This document shows positions 3,471 to 10,289 of a DNA stretch of 17,569 nucleotides, piece by piece; the stretch's first letter is position 1, and every line of letters starts with the position of its first letter. The position numbers were made by a program, and so were the translations under genes. Below the pieces are notes generated by a model that was given only the letters and a program-made list of their open reading frames with translations, searched no databases and was not told the DNA's origin. The stretch is from Nitrospinota bacterium (GTDB lineage: Bacteria > Nitrospinota > Nitrospinia > JACRGO01), in NCBI GenBank assembly GCA_016212295.1, contig JACRGO010000142.1, positions 1-17,569 on the forward strand, given 5' to 3'.

Positions 3471-4129
3471 TGATCCAGATTTTTCATCTACAAAAAACCT
3501 ACGAGGGAAACAACATCCCCGCGCTGAGCGAAATCAACCTGCATATCCAAAAAGGTGAGTTTTGCTACCTCTGCGGTCCCAGCGGCGCCGGGAAGTCCAC
3601 GCTAATGAAGATCCTCATGAAGATGGAAAACTATAACCAGGGCCAGATCCTGATCCAGGGAATGAACCTGGCCAAGATAAAGGAGTCCAAAATACCTTAT
3701 CTCCGGCGGGAAATCGGGGTCGTGTTTCAAGATTTTAAGCTCCTGAACAGAAAAACGGTTTTTGACAATATAGCCTTTCCCCAGGAAGTGGTGGGAAAGC
3801 CCAGGAATGAAATCAAAAAGAAGACCTGGGAACTTCTAAAATATATCGGACTGGCCCATAAAAAGGACGCTTACCCGCTCCGCCTTTCCGGGGGGGAGCA
3901 GCAGCGGGTGGCCATAGCAAGGGCCCTGGCCAATGACCCCTCCATCCTTTTGGCCGACGAACCAATGGGGAATCTGGACGAGGAAATCTCAATGGAGATA
4001 ATGGGCCTGTTTGAGAGGGCCAATCAATACGGCGCCACTGTTTTATTGGCGACCCATAACCTTTCCCTGACAAGACGAGTCATGCATCGAAAAATCGTGT
4101 TGGAGAGGGGAAAGCTCCTTGCGTCCTGA
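3470..4129 (+). CDS. ftsE: cell-division ATP-binding protein FtsE
   Basis: FtsE is the cytoplasmic ATPase of the FtsEX complex, which sits at the septum and couples ATP hydrolysis to activation of cell-wall hydrolases. All ABC motifs are present in the 219 residues: Walker [10 protein letters not shown] (36-44), Q-loop Gln87 in VVFQDF, signature LSGGEQQ (139-145), Walker B ILLADEP (159-165) and H-loop His196. Length is typical of FtsE (about 220). The ATG shares its A with the last base of the tkt TGA stop, and its own stop overlaps the ftsX ATG in the same way, so translation of tkt, ftsE and ftsX is probably coupled. The partner ftsX follows directly, which distinguishes it from LolD- or MacB-type ATPases. 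Confidence 0.95.
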
Positions 4130-5046
4130 TGCCGCCATTCCTGAAACAATCCCTTAAGACCTTTGCTGAAGCCGCCGCCAATATAAGGGACAACAAGGAA
4201 ACGTCCCTTATCGCCATATTCACCATCTCCGTCGCCATCACCATCCTCGGACTCTTCCTCCTGGTTTATTTCAATCTCAATAATGTCCTGCGCGGCTTGT
4301 CCGAAAAGCTGCAACTCGTTGTTTACCTTAAGGACGATATTCAGGAGAGCGGATTGAAGAAAGTGGAGGCCATGATCCGGGACGAGGAGAAAATCTGGAA
4401 ATGGGAATATCTCTCGAAGGACAACGCGTTAAGGGCCTTCAGGGAAAAACTCAAGGACAAAAGCGCCATACTGGAGGGCCTGGACGCCAACCCTCTGCCC
4501 GCCTCATTCAATATTTATTTCAAGGAAGGTTACAGGAATTACGAGGAGATCAAGCTTCTGGCCGGGAAATTCAGCGCCGCCCAGGGAGTGGAGGACGTGG
4601 ATTACGGCGGCGGCTGGATACTTCGCTTTGAGGCCGCCATTTTTTTCCTGAAGATTTTCATCACGGCCGTGGGAGGATTGCTGGCGCTGGGGCTTATAAC
4701 CATTATTTCCAACACGGTCCGCCTGTCGGTCTATTCCCGCCATGACGAAATTGAGATAAAGAAGCTGGTGGGCGCAACCAGATGGTTCATCCAGGCCCCA
4801 TTTTTGGTGGAGGGGATCATTCAGGGCATGGCCGGGGTCGTTTTTTACTTGGGCGTTCTTATCATTTTTTAAGGCTATTTTTTGGTCAGACTGGCTTCCG
4901 GTTCCCAGCTTTTGATGGGGGTTAACGTGGTGTTTCTCCCTGGCAAGGTTATTCTTTTGCTGGTCTTGTTAGGAGCTTTGGTGGGAGGAACGGGAAGCCT
5001 TTTGTCATTAAGAAAACTCATGCGGTTTGATAAACCGATGCAGTGA
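4129..5046 (+). pseudogene. ftsX: ftsX, interrupted by an in-frame TAA before its last membrane helix
   Basis: FtsX is the membrane partner of FtsE; its periplasmic loop binds the hydrolase activator EnvC. Residues 1-247 show TM1 (about 26-49), the periplasmic domain (about 50-165), TM2 (about 169-193), the conserved cytoplasmic segment with VRLSVYSRHDEIEIKKLVGA (197-216) and part of TM3. A TAA at 4870-4872 then ends the frame. Reading on in the same frame gives 57 more codons to a TGA at 5044-5046. They encode a typical FtsX ending: a hydrophobic helix (VILLLVLLGALVGG) then SLLSLRKLM. Full length would be about 305 positions, normal for FtsX. The stop therefore removes TM4. It could be a true nonsense mutation or a consensus error: two T6 runs lie at 4865-4870 and 4878-4883. 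As written, the open product is 4129-4872. Confidence 0.85.
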
Positions 5047-5142
5047 AATTGGTTCAATTAGTTTGATTCGTTTGATTGGTTTAGTTGGTTGGATTGGTTA
5101 AAACCAGTTGAACAAACTGGACCAATTGAACCAATTTAACGG
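5047..5142. repeat. hairpin repeat A with 9-bp periodic arms
   Basis: This begins at the base after the ftsX TGA. The left half is a degenerate tandem array with period 9 (TTCAATTAG, TTTGATTCG, TTTGATTGG, TTTAGTTGG, TTGGATTGG). The right half carries similar units in inverted orientation. The centre is GATTGGTTAAAACCA, shared exactly with hairpin B at 5613-5714. It is also placed to act as a hairpin downstream of the minus-strand DUF1640-like gene that ends at 5146. Confidence 0.8.
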
Positions 5143-5145
5143 TTT

Positions 5146-5535
5146 TTAAGAAATGAAAAATGCCTTCAAGATAAGCGACATGACGCCTGCAAGCATGAAA
5201 CCGGTCATCCACTTGAGGACCAGTATCTCTTTCTCCAACCGGTTGATGTCGCCCTTTACCTCCTTTTCAAGCCGGCCTATGTCGCCTGTAATTCGTTTTT
5301 CAAGATCGCCCTTTACCGAGGCAAGATCGCCCTTTACCGAGGTAATATCGTTCTTTACAGAGGTAATATCGTTCTTTAACCCATTGATATCCCCCTTGGT
5401 GGCCAGGCTGGAATCCAATATTTCCGCCAGCATGTCCTTTTGGGCCTCGGCCTGGATTTCGGCCTGCTCTTGGGTAAAACCGGCGCTTTTAAGCTTTCTG
5501 GCGTATGCCAGGGTGTCAAAGGTGACAGTGGACAT
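5146..5535 (-). CDS. DUF1640/CCDC90-like coiled-coil protein with C-terminal membrane anchor
   Basis: The protein is 129 residues from ATG 5535. The N-terminus has the pattern TFDTLAYARKLKSAGFTQEQ followed by an acidic helix and ATKGDI, typical of small bacterial DUF1640 (CCDC90/MCUR1-like) proteins as I recall them. The middle is a heptad coiled coil with near-repeats DITSVKN, DITSVKG, DLASVKG. A hydrophobic C-terminal segment (WMTGFMLAGVMSLILKAFF) should anchor it in the inner membrane. Bacterial function is unknown. A TTG at 5544 would add three residues; ATG 5535 is preferred, although neither has a clear Shine-Dalgarno. It lies antisense between ftsX and envC, has its own consensus promoter at 5570-5599, and is flanked by hairpins A and B. 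Confidence 0.8.
   Translation of the reverse strand: MSTVTFDTLAYARKLKSAGFTQEQAEIQAEAQKDMLAEILDSSLATKGDINGLKNDITSVKNDITSVKGDLASVKGDLEKRITGDIGRLEKEVKGDINRLEKEILVLKWMTGFMLAGVMSLILKAFFIS
5304..5387. repeat. four tandem 21-bp units inside the coiled-coil gene
   Basis: Units at 5304-5324, 5325-5345, 5346-5366 and 5367-5387 each encode one heptad. Units 1 and 2 differ at one base and units 2 and 3 at a few; unit 4 is more degenerate. The unit is three turns of 7 codons, so copy-number change would lengthen or shorten the coiled coil without shifting frame. Confidence 0.8.
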
Positions 5536-5569
5536 TAGAATCAATCAGCTTTAAATTGTGGTCAATTGC

Positions 5570-5599
5570 ATTATATCCCTGGCGGAAAAATGTTGTCAA
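5570..5599 (-). promoter_or_regulatory. consensus sigma70 promoter of the DUF1640-like gene
   Basis: On the minus strand the -35 is TTGACA (5594-5599) and the -10 is TATAAT (5570-5575), both perfect, with an 18-nt spacer. The start point would be near 5563, giving a leader of about 28 nt to the ATG at 5535. This is the best promoter match in the window. Confidence 0.75.
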
Positions 5600-5612
5600 T
5601 GAAAAATTTCTG

Positions 5613-5714
5613 TTGGTTCAATTGGTTCCTGTTGGTTTAATTGGTTTGATTGGTTAAAACCAACTGAACCAATGTAACCAATAGAACCAGTGAAACCAAT
5701 CAAACCAATCAAAC
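5613..5714. repeat. hairpin repeat B with 9-bp periodic arms
   Basis: This is a second copy of the hairpin design. The left arm has units such as TTCAATTGG, TTTAATTGG and TTTGATTGG. The right arm, read in reverse complement, gives TTTGATTGG twice, then TTTCACTGG, TTCTATTGG, TTACATTGG and TTCAGTTGG. The core GATTGGTTAAAACCA is identical to hairpin A. It ends 14 nt before the envC ATG. Confidence 0.8.
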
Positions 5715-5728
5715 AAAAATCCTTAGCC

Positions 5729-6907
5729 ATGTCCATTTTAATTCGTCTTTATTTTGGGTCCCTTATTTCCGCCGCGCTTCTTTTTTCCCCCGTCCCCGCC
5801 CTTTTCGCCGCGCATCAGGATGACACCGCAAGCAAAATCGAGGCGGAAAAAAATGAGCTGGCGAAACTGAGAAAGGCCATGGAAGAGGAGAGGCAAAATA
5901 TCTCCGGCCTGGAGGACAAGGAAAAGTCCGTCCTTCAAAAGATCCAGGAGGTCTCCAGGAAATTGGACCTTCAAAAAAGAGAGGTCAGGGTCTGCGAGCG
6001 TTCCATTGCCCTGAATCAGATGGAGCTTAGTGAAAATGAAAAAAAACTGCGGGAAACTGAGGCCATCGCGGAAAACCAAAAAAAAATCCTGGCAAAGAGA
6101 GTCCGTTTTTTATATAAGGAAGGGGACCTCTCATACCTGAAGGCGGTTTTTTCCTCGGAGGGCTTGTCCGATCTGACCAGGCGCATAACTTACATGAAAT
6201 TGATCGCGGAGGCGGACGCGGATATGTTCAGGAAGATACTGGACAACAAGGAAAAGCTGGAAAAAATAAAGGCCCACCTCATTCAGGTAAATAACCAACT
6301 CGCTGTTTCCCAAAAGGAGATTTTGGGAAAAAAAGCTAAATACGAGGAGGAAAAGGAAGCCAAGAACCGTTTTCTTGGAGAAATACAGGAAAAAAAATCG
6401 CTTTACGAAAAATCCTTGAAGGAACTGGAGACCGCTTCCCTGGCATTGGAGGAATTGATAAGAAAATTGGGAGAGCCCGCTGGTGAGGACGCCTTAATGG
6501 AATTCGCCGGCCTTGGCTTTAACCTCCCGTGGCCGGTGAAGGGGGGGATCATTTCCAGCTTCGGAAAAGCGTATAATCCCGAATACCGGACCTCCACCTT
6601 CAACAATGGGATCGTGATAGGATCGGCCTTTTCTGAAAAGGTCCGGGCCATTGCCGGAGGCAAGGTCCTGTTCGCCGATTGGCTGAAGGGGTATGGGCGG
6701 TTATTGATAATTGGGCATGGGAAAGGTTATCATTCCTTATACGGGTATCTTGATGATTTTCTGGTTAAAGCCGGGGCGCCGGTTGAAAAGGGCCAAGTTA
6801 TTGGAGAGGTAGGAGACACCGGCTCCATGCGCGGCCCTTCCCTGTATCTTGAAATCCGTAAGCTTGGCAGGCCGGTGGATCCATCGCGGCTGCTTTCCAG
6901 GCAGTGA
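5729..6907 (+). CDS. envC: EnvC-type murein hydrolase activator (degenerate LytM/M23 domain)
   Basis: EnvC is periplasmic, binds the outer loop of FtsX and activates cell-wall amidases at the septum. From ATG 5729 the protein is 392 residues: a signal peptide (about 1-28, ending ALFAA), a long charged coiled coil (about 33-250) and a C-terminal LytM/M23 fold (about 266-388). The metal-binding residues are degraded. The usual H-x-G-x-D site reads NNGIVI (292-297) and the final H-x-H site reads LYLEI (372-376), while His335 in the GKGYH segment remains. This matches E. coli EnvC, a non-catalytic activator. A GTG at 5690 would extend the N-terminus with repeat-encoded KPIKPIK and is rejected because ATG 5729 directly opens a signal peptide. 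No clear Shine-Dalgarno precedes it. Confidence 0.9.
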   Translation: MSILIRLYFGSLISAALLFSPVPALFAAHQDDTASKIEAEKNELAKLRKAMEEERQNISGLEDKEKSVLQKIQEVSRKLDLQKREVRVCERSIALNQMELSENEKKLRETEAIAENQKKILAKRVRFLYKEGDLSYLKAVFSSEGLSDLTRRITYMKLIAEADADMFRKILDNKEKLEKIKAHLIQVNNQLAVSQKEILGKKAKYEEEKEAKNRFLGEIQEKKSLYEKSLKELETASLALEELIRKLGEPAGEDALMEFAGLGFNLPWPVKGGIISSFGKAYNPEYRTSTFNNGIVIGSAFSEKVRAIAGGKVLFADWLKGYGRLLIIGHGKGYHSLYGYLDDFLVKAGAPVEKGQVIGEVGDTGSMRGPSLYLEIRKLGRPVDPSRLLSRQ

Positions 6908-6915
6908 AAAAAATT

Positions 6916-7020
6916 GTAACTGCTCAGGCACAAAGGCAGAAGCCACAGAGGCACAAAGAAAAAAGAGAGTTATTGCCGGATTTTACTCTGTGCCTTCTGC
7001 CTTTGTGCCTGAGCAGTTAC
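6916..7020. repeat. 105-bp palindrome between envC and ctpA
   Basis: Perfect 27-bp inverted arms lie at 6916-6942 and 6994-7020, beginning GTAACTGCTCAGGCAC. They extend to 35 bp with one mismatch, leaving a 35-nt loop. It starts 8 nt after the envC stop and ends about 20 nt before the ctpA ribosome binding site. The arms contain the motif GGCACAAAG, also found in the repeat near 17129-17211. It lacks a T-run, so it is not a classic terminator. RNA processing or attenuation within the operon is possible. Confidence 0.85.
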
Positions 7021-7055
7021 AGAAATTTAAACATTGTTTTAGGAGATCGTGAAAA

Positions 7056-8417
7056 ATGGCGTCTAAAATCAAGGGAAAACTGGTTTATATCAATTTGTTG
7101 ATCCTGCTTGCCGCTTCATTGTTTCTGGGTTTTTCAGGCTCGTCCAAGGTGATGGCCGTCGGCGCCGCGTACGAAAGCCTGAAAAATTTCTCCGAGGTCC
7201 TGTCCCTTGTCCAAAAAAATTACGTGACCGAGGTCAATACCGACACCCTCATCCAGGGCGCCATCAACGGCATGTTAAGGGAACTGGACCCTCATACGTC
7301 CTATATGCCGCGCGAAGCCTACAAGGAAATGCAGGTGGAGACCGAGGGCAAGTTCGGCGGACTTGGCATAGAGATAAGCATCAAGGATGATTTACTCACC
7401 GTCGTCTCTCCAATTGAGGACACCCCGGCCTACAACGCCGGAATCAAGGCAGGCGACAAGATACTGAAGGTCGATGGGCAATCAACAAAGGACATGTCAC
7501 TCATAGAGGCAGTAAAAAAACTGAGGGGCGAGCCGGGGTCAAATGTGACCATCACAGTCATAAGGGAAGATTTCCAGGCCCCAAAGGACTTCACCATAAC
7601 CAGGGCCATTATACAAATCAAGAGCGTCAAGACAAAAAAGATAGACCCGGACGTGGCTTACATAAGGATCCGGAGCTTCACCAAAACCACGAATAGCGAA
7701 CTGGACGAGGCCCTGGCAAGCGCAGCTAAGCAAAAAGGCGGCATAAAGGGATTGATCCTTGATCTCAGGAATAATCCGGGCGGACTCCTGAATCAGGCCG
7801 TTGAAGTGTCCGAACGCTTCCTGGAAAAGGGGAAGCTTGTGGTTTACACCAAGGGACGGATTAAGGAGCAGGACATGCGCTTTGTGTCCGAGGGCGCCAA
7901 TGCCCGCACTGATTTTCCGATGGTGATCCTGGTCAATGCAGGAAGCGCCAGCGCGTCCGAGATTGTCGCCGGGGCCTTGCAGGACCTCCAACGCGCTCTG
8001 GTTGTCGGGACGCAGACCTTCGGCAAGGGTTCGGTCCAGACCATTATTCCATTGAGCGACGGGGCCGGCCTGCGCCTAACCACGGCCAGATATTATACGC
8101 CAAGCGGCACGATTATCCAGGAGAAAGGGATTACCCCGGATATCGTTATAGAGAATATCCTTGAACCCGCCAAGACCGAGAAAGAGGAAAAAGAGGACAC
8201 GAAATTCAAGGCCATTAGGGAAAAGGACCTGGACCAGCACCTCAAGGGGGAAGCCGCCAAGGAAAAGGCTGACAAGACCGAGCAGGAGAAAAGCGTTACC
8301 GGGGAGTCACTCGAAGCAATCGATTCCAGGGACGTTCAACTGCAAAGGGCGGTCGGATTGTTGAAGGGAGTGGCGATTTTCAAGGACAAATTATTTTCAC
8401 CCAAAAAGGCCGGATAA
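7056..8417 (+). CDS. ctpA: C-terminal processing peptidase, S41 family (CtpA/Prc)
   Basis: This periplasmic, membrane-tethered serine protease trims or degrades exported proteins from their C-termini; in other bacteria relatives control peptidoglycan hydrolases. The chain is 453 residues: an N-terminal hydrophobic signal or anchor (about 9-27), the helical cap region ending ELDPHTSYM (76-84), a PDZ domain (about 97-185) and the S41 core (about 195-365). The catalytic Ser299 lies in GSASASE and Lys324 in FGKGSVQ, with Gln328; the 25- and 4-residue spacings match CtpB-type enzymes. A charged Lys/Glu-rich tail (about 370-453) follows. AGGAG at 7041-7045 supports the start. It follows envC in the same direction, as commonly seen, and the next operon member would be the yibQ-like gene now lying beyond the restriction-modification genes. 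Confidence 0.95.
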   Translation: MASKIKGKLVYINLLILLAASLFLGFSGSSKVMAVGAAYESLKNFSEVLSLVQKNYVTEVNTDTLIQGAINGMLRELDPHTSYMPREAYKEMQVETEGKFGGLGIEISIKDDLLTVVSPIEDTPAYNAGIKAGDKILKVDGQSTKDMSLIEAVKKLRGEPGSNVTITVIREDFQAPKDFTITRAIIQIKSVKTKKIDPDVAYIRIRSFTKTTNSELDEALASAAKQKGGIKGLILDLRNNPGGLLNQAVEVSERFLEKGKLVVYTKGRIKEQDMRFVSEGANARTDFPMVILVNAGSASASEIVAGALQDLQRALVVGTQTFGKGSVQTIIPLSDGAGLRLTTARYYTPSGTIIQEKGITPDIVIENILEPAKTEKEEKEDTKFKAIREKDLDQHLKGEAAKEKADKTEQEKSVTGESLEAIDSRDVQLQRAVGLLKGVAIFKDKLFSPKKAG

Positions 8418-8548: not shown

Positions 8549-9577
8549 ATGATCGCACCAACAAGCGAGCTCAACTTCAAAATTGAACGGTTGCCCAAAA
8601 GCTTGCAGGCTGCATTCCATGTATTATATTCCAGAAAGGAAGAAACTTCCTCGTATTTGAGTCCCAATCAAATCTATCAAGGAAACGCATGTGACCTCCT
8701 GCCCCAAATCGAGCTTAACAGCATTGCTCTAAGCGTGTGGTCTCCCCCGTACTTTGTAGGCAAAGACTACGAAGCACATTTAACTTTTGACGACTGGCAG
8801 GTTTTACTTGCAAAAGTAATACGCCTACACTACCCCATAATCAAGCCCGGCGGATTCTTAGTTATCAACATAGCAGATATTCTTTGCTTTAAAGACCCTT
8901 CAATGCCGAGAGTTCAAGCCGATGCAGTGCATAGAAAACGCTCATCGGTCACAAAAGAAGATGTTCTCAAGGCATTGGCAGAACATCCCAATTACAGTCG
9001 CTATCAACTTGCCGCTTTGCTTGAGTGTAGTGAACAGACTATAGACCGACGATTGCACGGCAACAATATACGTGGCGGCAAGCATGAACCACAGACCAGA
9101 GTAAAAATTATCGGCGGTCTTGTGGAAGATTGGGCACTCAACGCAGGTTTTTATCCTTACGACCGCCGCGTTTGGGTGAAGGACGCCGCATGGGAGAATT
9201 CGCGCTGGGCTAGTCTATCATATCGAGCTGTGGACGAGTTTGAGTATTTGTATTTTTTTTGGAAACCTGGAATAACTAAATTTGACAGGAACAGACTTTC
9301 ACGCGATGATTGGAAAAACTGGGGGTCACGGGGCGTATGGACTTTTCCATCAGTCCGAGCCAATGATAACCACGAAGCGAAGTTTCCTTTAGAACTTCCT
9401 TTGAGGACTATTCGCTTGCTAACAGACCCCAGCGAGATTGTGCTTGATTGCTTCCTGGGTAGCGGAACGACAGCCGTTGCCGCAGTCCGTGAAAACCGCC
9501 AATACATTGGCATCGAACTTGAAAAAAAGTATGTGACCCTTGCCCGTCGCCACGTAGCCGCCGAAAAGAACCGCTGA
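8549..9577 (+). CDS. type II DNA methyltransferase, beta class (SPPY motif), probably N4-cytosine
   Basis: This is the protective partner of the adjacent endonuclease and uses S-adenosylmethionine to methylate its target. The protein has 342 residues with permuted motifs: the catalytic SPPY (65-68) is near the N-terminus and the AdoMet-binding DCFLGSGTT (300-308) is near the C-terminus, with NHEAKFP (274-280) just before it. This order defines the beta class, and SPPY is typical of N4-cytosine enzymes. Between them, residues about 134-176 look like a helix-turn-helix (TKEDVLKALAEHPNYSRYQL then CSEQTIDRRL) and may help target recognition or regulate transcription. One nt separates its stop from the endonuclease ATG. 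The gene appears more A/T-rich than ctpA before it, consistent with acquisition. Confidence 0.9.
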   Translation: MIAPTSELNFKIERLPKSLQAAFHVLYSRKEETSSYLSPNQIYQGNACDLLPQIELNSIALSVWSPPYFVGKDYEAHLTFDDWQVLLAKVIRLHYPIIKPGGFLVINIADILCFKDPSMPRVQADAVHRKRSSVTKEDVLKALAEHPNYSRYQLAALLECSEQTIDRRLHGNNIRGGKHEPQTRVKIIGGLVEDWALNAGFYPYDRRVWVKDAAWENSRWASLSYRAVDEFEYLYFFWKPGITKFDRNRLSRDDWKNWGSRGVWTFPSVRANDNHEAKFPLELPLRTIRLLTDPSEIVLDCFLGSGTTAVAAVRENRQYIGIELEKKYVTLARRHVAAEKNR

Positions 9578-9578
9578 T

Positions 9579-10289
9579 ATGCTCATCAACCCGCGTGATT
9601 TACAAGACAACTTGGAAAGGCTGGAAGAGATTGAAAAGGCATCTCTGCGGTTGGTGGTTCAGGCAATTTACGAGTACAGAGAAGATGCCCTCGTAATCTT
9701 TCGAGAAGAAGGCGACCAAGTTGCAGACATTGGCGAAGATGTAACACGAGAGGCCCTTGACCGGCTTGGAATGTCCAAGATAGACCAGCGTCTTTTTGGA
9801 AAAGTTGACTACAAACGCGCCCGCTATCTCTTTCATTCAGAATACGCCGCAAAACAAGCGCTATTTGTTGACTCAAAGGCGGAAAAAGTCAGTGGACAAA
9901 GAACGGCTACTCTTCAAATCTCACAGCTCTCAATGACCGTTCGGCAAATTCGTTCTGGACAAGAAGTCAGTGTGTCGGGAAAGTTGCCCACTGTTCTGAC
10001 GCTCAGAAACGAACAATACATCACTACTACTTTGTTCGTGAAGTACAACTATGACGAAGAAGACGGTGTAAACGTACTGAAAACCGTTACAGTCGCCGCA
10101 GTGCCGAGTGGGATGCTACAAGCTCGATATAACCCCAACGCTAACGACACTATTTGGCTTGCAGGGCGAGACGCGCCCACGTTGGGAGAAGAATTCCGAG
10201 TTCGACTAAGTTTCTCGCGCTTGAAAGATAAGGCCAATTGGCGCGTTCAGAAAATCCCAATGTCCCCTGAAGAATTCCGGTGGGATTAA
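9579..10289 (+). CDS. SfiI-like type II restriction endonuclease
   Basis: The 236-residue protein resembles SfiI, a tetrameric type IIF enzyme that cuts two copies of GGCCN5GGCC. From memory of the SfiI sequence, the shared landmarks are an N-terminal helix ending RLVVQAIYEY, the segment VDYKRARYL (76-84), LFVDSKAE (95-102), LQISQLSM (112-119) and QARYNPNAND (181-190). The PD-(D/E)xK site would be Asp77, Asp98 and Lys100; the 21-residue and 2-residue spacings agree with the SfiI residues I recall (D79, D100, K102). The protein is somewhat shorter than SfiI (about 269). It starts 1 nt after the methyltransferase stop, so the two are co-transcribed and probably coupled. Its recognition sequence is inferred, not seen. 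Confidence 0.85.
   Translation: MLINPRDLQDNLERLEEIEKASLRLVVQAIYEYREDALVIFREEGDQVADIGEDVTREALDRLGMSKIDQRLFGKVDYKRARYLFHSEYAAKQALFVDSKAEKVSGQRTATLQISQLSMTVRQIRSGQEVSVSGKLPTVLTLRNEQYITTTLFVKYNYDEEDGVNVLKTVTVAAVPSGMLQARYNPNANDTIWLAGRDAPTLGEEFRVRLSFSRLKDKANWRVQKIPMSPEEFRWD

Follow-up and report, generated by a model that had tools for sequence, protein, structure and literature searches.

Between ftsX and envC, within an operon for cell division, the window analyzed here (the whole 17,569-nucleotide stretch of DNA, a single contig from the draft genome of a Nitrospinota bacterium) carries a block that is probably a dispersed gene module; no recognized enzyme explains how it moves. When the sequence is read directly, a palindrome, a gene, and a second palindrome are seen to occupy positions 5047 to 5717 (Table 1). 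We tentatively read this block as a non-autonomous, repeat-bracketed single-gene module in which the palindromes may act as ends or landing pads, and we give that reading, with its inferred movement step, close to an even chance. The original prediction went further in naming the block its best candidate for an undescribed system, a term that is too strong; a repeat-bracketed non-autonomous gene module is the description that fits.

Table 1. Features of the block between ftsX and envC and of its flanks, in positions of the window
Feature	Position	Strand	Detail or evidence
ftsX, left flank of insertion	4129..5046	+	in-frame TAA 4870-4872
3' palindrome (gene sense)	5047..5141	-	TTGGTTNNA units converging on AACCAANNN units; core GGTTTTAACCAATCCAACCAA at 5085-5105
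PF07798 CCDC90-like gene, 129 aa, stop codon included	5146..5535	-	profile match
Sigma-70 type promoter TTGACA-18-TATAAT	5570..5599	-	12/12 match
5' palindrome (gene sense), 9-nt units	5608..5717	-	core GGTTTTAACCAATCAAACCAA at 5641-5661
envC-type M23 peptidase, right flank of insertion	5729..6907	+	gene call and profile

The observation made from the window alone is confirmed, with corrections. Two related palindromes with a common core had been described, and the core GATTGGTTAAAACCA is found in both by direct reading; the gene does have its own consensus promoter, runs antisense to the operon, and is rightly called a coiled-coil membrane-protein gene (DUF1640), its product matching PF07798 (CCDC90-like, formerly DUF1640) at 35.5 bits, above the curated cutoff of 33.5. 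The edges of the block need adjustment. A start immediately after the ftsX stop is correct with respect to TGA 5044-5046, but this codon closes only the frame of ancestral length, and the in-frame TAA comes earlier; an end 14 nt before the envC ATG is correct for position 5714, but the array itself reaches 5717, 11 nt before that start codon. Past the TAA, the ftsX frame runs on to 5046 with FtsX-like sequence, and ftsX is intact, at 304 aa, in the congener (G001); the TAA is either a sequencing error or the sign of a truncated FtsX. No Rfam family was found within the window. Elsewhere in it are an inverted repeat at 273-456 (42-nt arms, 98% complementary, 100 nt apart), a second near-perfect palindrome at 6915-7021 with GGCACAAAG-like units (36-nt arms, 97%) between envC and the gene that follows it, and, downstream of that gene (7056-8417), a type II restriction-modification pair at 8549-10289 made up of an N6/N4 methylase and an SfiI/BglI-like endonuclease.

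Both palindromes of the block are arrays of a degenerate 9-nt unit, TTGGTTNNA, continued past the center by its reverse complement. The units are spaced by 9, and six of the nine bases are largely kept while three are variable, so that the arms, which are 75-92% complementary, pair in six-base steps. As DNA, the two palindromes fold better than 200 of 200 dinucleotide shuffles (z of -4.24 and -3.51), and as RNA the 3' palindrome reaches a z of -6.0 against such shuffles. With respect to the gene, the two hairpins point the same way and are not mirrored. The 5' and 3' hairpins of the window (contig C96) match better when compared directly than when inverted (66 versus 57), as do those of a second contig, C26 (88 versus 47), an orientation bias that is based on five hairpins.

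A check for further copies in the genome, as the original prediction had advised, gave two more bracketed PF07798 genes, on contigs C26 and C207. In this assembly (G000; 3.74 Mb, a fragmented draft of 237 contigs), a unit-chain scan returned 54 array matches, and there are about ten converging palindromes, six of which form three pairs around PF07798 genes (C96, C26, and C207). The core GGTTTTAACCAATCNAACCAA occurs without mismatch exactly four times, twice on C26 and twice on C96, always on the gene strand; the reversed core, used as a control, gave no match in the genome even at three mismatches. The brackets are not uniform, as the distance from hairpin to stop codon is unequal among the bracketed copies and no core is present in the 3' hairpin of C207. 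Outside them, clear solo palindromes are present on C90 and C210, weaker ones at C207:17156-17235 and on C220, and one-way arrays on C91, C92, C108, C34, C211, and C219. Short-unit arrays in general were considered as the same element and rejected; they are common in the genome but have periods of 7 or 8, and none of the 48 found in 256 kb of unselected contigs has a period of 9. Arrays of 7-nt units (GACGAGT, GAACATC, CAATGAC, and others) are distributed genome-wide, with 39 in 256 kb, and some are palindromic (L212-L231).

Additional insight is gained when the bracketed loci are aligned with each other. C96 and C207 align continuously through the 5' hairpin, spacer, and promoter once a MITE in C207 is set aside, the ends of their ORFs are identical at 136 of 156 and 85 of 105 nt, and their proteins share 91% identity, with nucleotide changes that are mostly synonymous. 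The alignment stops inside the outer arm of the hairpin, and the neighboring genes differ. It follows that at least the 5' hairpin, promoter, and ORF were copied together, before the MITE arrived, and dispersal of these three as a unit is supported. The MITE itself, 150 nt long, lies between the 5' hairpin and the promoter of C207; its ends, GTAACATTTTAGC / GCTAAAGTGTTAC, are inverted, and an imperfect duplication of about 8 nt flanks it. Members of its family (L045 2190-2420, L246-L252) measure about 150-165 nt and end in GTAACATTTTAGC, and some of them are flanked by duplications of about 8 nt; the genome has at least seven substantial copies.

The C26 gene belongs to another subfamily, its protein being 31% identical to that of C96, and the 3' hairpins of the two loci are 87.5% identical over 80 nt. 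As arrays of a common unit inflate apparent similarity, this pair was set against unit-resampled controls and scores above 300 of 300 of them (110 versus a control maximum of 93); the p-value has a floor of about 1/300 and is uncorrected for how many pairs of hairpins were compared, and only this pair is therefore leaned on. Near-identical 3' hairpins around different gene subfamilies imply that bracket and cargo are separable. Within the second subfamily, the five copies compared have sequence in common from about -40 to the stop codon, and directly outside this segment identity is at background. The ATG follows the promoter, which is TTGAAC-17-TACATT-like, by a few bases, so that the transcript may be leaderless. 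Such conservation reveals a gene unit complete in itself; the pattern would be no different, however, under purifying selection on promoter and ORF.

The main alternative, possible if doubtful, is that these observations reflect two overlapping repeat classes, namely, ordinary intergenic palindromes that fill gene junctions and a separately duplicated orphan PF07798 family. The two would have been paired once, after which one or two duplications and gene conversion spread the pairing, the hairpins having no role in movement. Solo hairpins on C90 and C210, and one in a genome from another family of the phylum, fit this explanation, as do the hairpins that abut ORF ends at several loci without a PF07798 gene, the wealth of further short-unit arrays in the genome (48 within 256 kb), and the predominance of unbracketed PF07798 copies, with 7 of the 10 head-domain genes free of a TTGGTT bracket. 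It accounts less readily for the confinement of the exact core to brackets, for a bracket common to two gene subfamilies, and for three pairs around a single gene family drawn from about ten palindromes, which is far from random placement.

The ftsX-envC junctions of relatives, whose comparison had also been suggested, place the arrival of the block in this lineage. In six class-level relatives the block is absent and ftsX and envC overlap or lie tens of nucleotides apart, from which it follows that the block is derived here; the comparison leaves the insertion ends undefined and offers no same-genus empty site. In G001, the single same-genus genome, a radical-SAM-like gene (by eye) comes after ftsX and envC is on another contig; this junction has also been disrupted, in a different way. 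The strict three-unit array pattern is missing in G001, and a search of 76 other genomes of the phylum gave it in one alone, G013, the genome of another family mentioned above, in which a TTGGTT palindrome lies inside a larger imperfect palindrome with arms CCACAGAGGCAC...GTCTCTGTGG (L236 2110-2300). None of 80 PF07798 loci of other organisms has such arrays. Carriage by a virus or plasmid was considered and set aside, as the hairpin core is absent from the viral contigs searched and the protein from the plasmids searched; a phage search gave only distant protein relatives, in Bordetella avium phages.

With respect to the means of movement, the cassette had been described as lacking a recombinase, and in agreement no dedicated recombinase was found. 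The genome contains two Y1 transposase genes, and a Y1/RAYT mover was rejected on the ground that no TTGGTT array lies within about 2 kb of either. No target-site duplication is visible by eye at 5047/5717, and no close relative offers an empty site for comparison at the nucleotide level. The idea of a non-autonomous mobile unit survived both of the refuting conditions attached to it, given the two further brackets and the relatives without the block. It is supported for the shared 5' hairpin, promoter, and ORF, and it does not extend to hairpin-driven movement, insertion ends, or target duplication.

When these results are put together, it can be hypothesized that a PF07798 ORF with its own promoter, held between two low-copy palindromic repeats of the same orientation, arrived at a formerly tight ftsX-envC junction. 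The palindromes could serve as ends or landing pads for the spread of the module. Such spread would most likely involve recombination (or conversion) of palindromes that share an orientation and lie at dispersed sites, the enzymes being provided in trans. A solo palindrome, such as that at C90 or C210, would in this way become palindrome-gene-palindrome, and cargo of either PF07798 subfamily could occupy the same kind of bracket. Such landing-pad recombination would explain the direct orientation, the solo sites, the exchange of cargo, and the absence of both a recombinase and a target duplication. Against the model stand the seven unbracketed head-domain genes, the solo hairpins and one-way arrays, the unequal hairpin-to-stop spacing, the 3' hairpin of C207 without a core, the lack of any target-site duplication or dedicated recombinase seen, and the 80 array-free PF07798 loci of other organisms. 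Its fullest version, which we regard as unlikely, is a new type of minimal gene cassette, consisting of promoter and ORF and mobilized via flanking 9-nt-unit palindromic arrays; these would be ends and landing pads at once, the PF07798 cargo would be interchangeable, and no recombinase would be encoded.

Alternatively, the hairpins could be regulatory. They would then serve as bidirectional insulators or as leader elements that flank a strongly transcribed gene, itself antisense within an operon, and that abut start codons much as the TAACTGA repeats of Beggiatoaceae do (PMC4679880). Their positions would suit such a role, as the 5' hairpin adjoins the promoter on its outer side, the 3' hairpin directly follows the stop codon, and the arrays at envC, C207, and C210 stop 1-12 nt short of the start codons, where no Shine-Dalgarno sequence is seen by eye; the stable RNA fold is also consistent with it. 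This explanation is nonetheless improbable, considering that no terminator-like site was called at either hairpin of the window, that other PF07798 genes have equally conserved promoters without such hairpins, and that some arrays lie inside or between convergent genes. Chance or an assembly artifact, that is, degenerate simple repeats beside a gene or repeat-driven misjoins, might be suspected from the 237-contig draft, the low-complexity units, and the position of the C26 copy near a contig end, but is highly improbable in view of the shuffle controls, the exclusivity of the core to brackets, and a bracket that is intact within a 17.6-kb contig and again within a 24.4-kb contig.

The encoded protein can be placed in a known family. 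It consists of a conserved N-terminal head motif, variable coiled-coil repeats, and a C-terminal hydrophobic segment; among 13 aligned sequences, the FDT...QAE...TK.D columns are invariant and the C-terminal hydrophobic stretch is retained. A family profile built from this genome and its relatives matches PDB 6h9m (CCDC90B head) and 6h9l, and the likeness to the CCDC90/MCUR1 family (PF07798) comprises head motif, coiled-coil stalk, and C-terminal hydrophobic anchor. On this basis, the product is predicted to be a coiled-coil stalk that is anchored in the membrane and bears a CCDC90-type head. The genome holds ten PF07798 genes with the head region and three further, weaker matches that cover only the later part of the profile. 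One PF07798 gene (C216; L051 1759-2067) lies between genes resembling, by eye, those for the small and large subunits of a NiFe-hydrogenase, and in G007 (C4; L121) three consecutive PF07798-like matches fall within about 900 nt. PF07798 proteins are widespread and often multicopy in bacterial genomes; mitochondrial relatives have been studied in calcium and proline metabolism (PMC7519068). A genome in which several copies have a common bracket may help to explain the multiplication of such orphan genes. Shared brackets also bear on whether simple palindromic arrays can act as cassette ends.

For the CCDC90/MCUR1 family itself, we know of no comparable genetic module. As regards an integron gene cassette, the units here are single and dispersed and do not form an array. 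Similarity to REP or BIME elements with their RAYT (TnpA-REP) lies in dispersed intergenic palindromes that are sometimes paired, and in the presence of Y1 genes in this genome; however, REP usually number more than 100 copies per genome (as stated in PMC2817692), whereas there are about ten copies here, with arms built of 9-nt units and no Y1 gene beside the arrays. MITEs, including those that carry passengers, are likewise non-autonomous, repeat ended, and able to carry a gene, but the block ends without terminal inverted repeats and its bracket hairpins match better directly than inverted. The true MITE family of the same genome, one member of which is inserted in the C207 copy, has in contrast inverted ends and flanking duplications. 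A further parallel is with the TAACTGA repeats of marine Beggiatoaceae, 7-nt direct repeats in 169 sets, one of them indirect (PMC4679880), which are also lineage-specific intergenic arrays of short units that often end a few nucleotides before a start codon; the arrays described here differ from them in having a 9-nt unit, a converging arrangement, a low copy number, and a pairing around one gene family.
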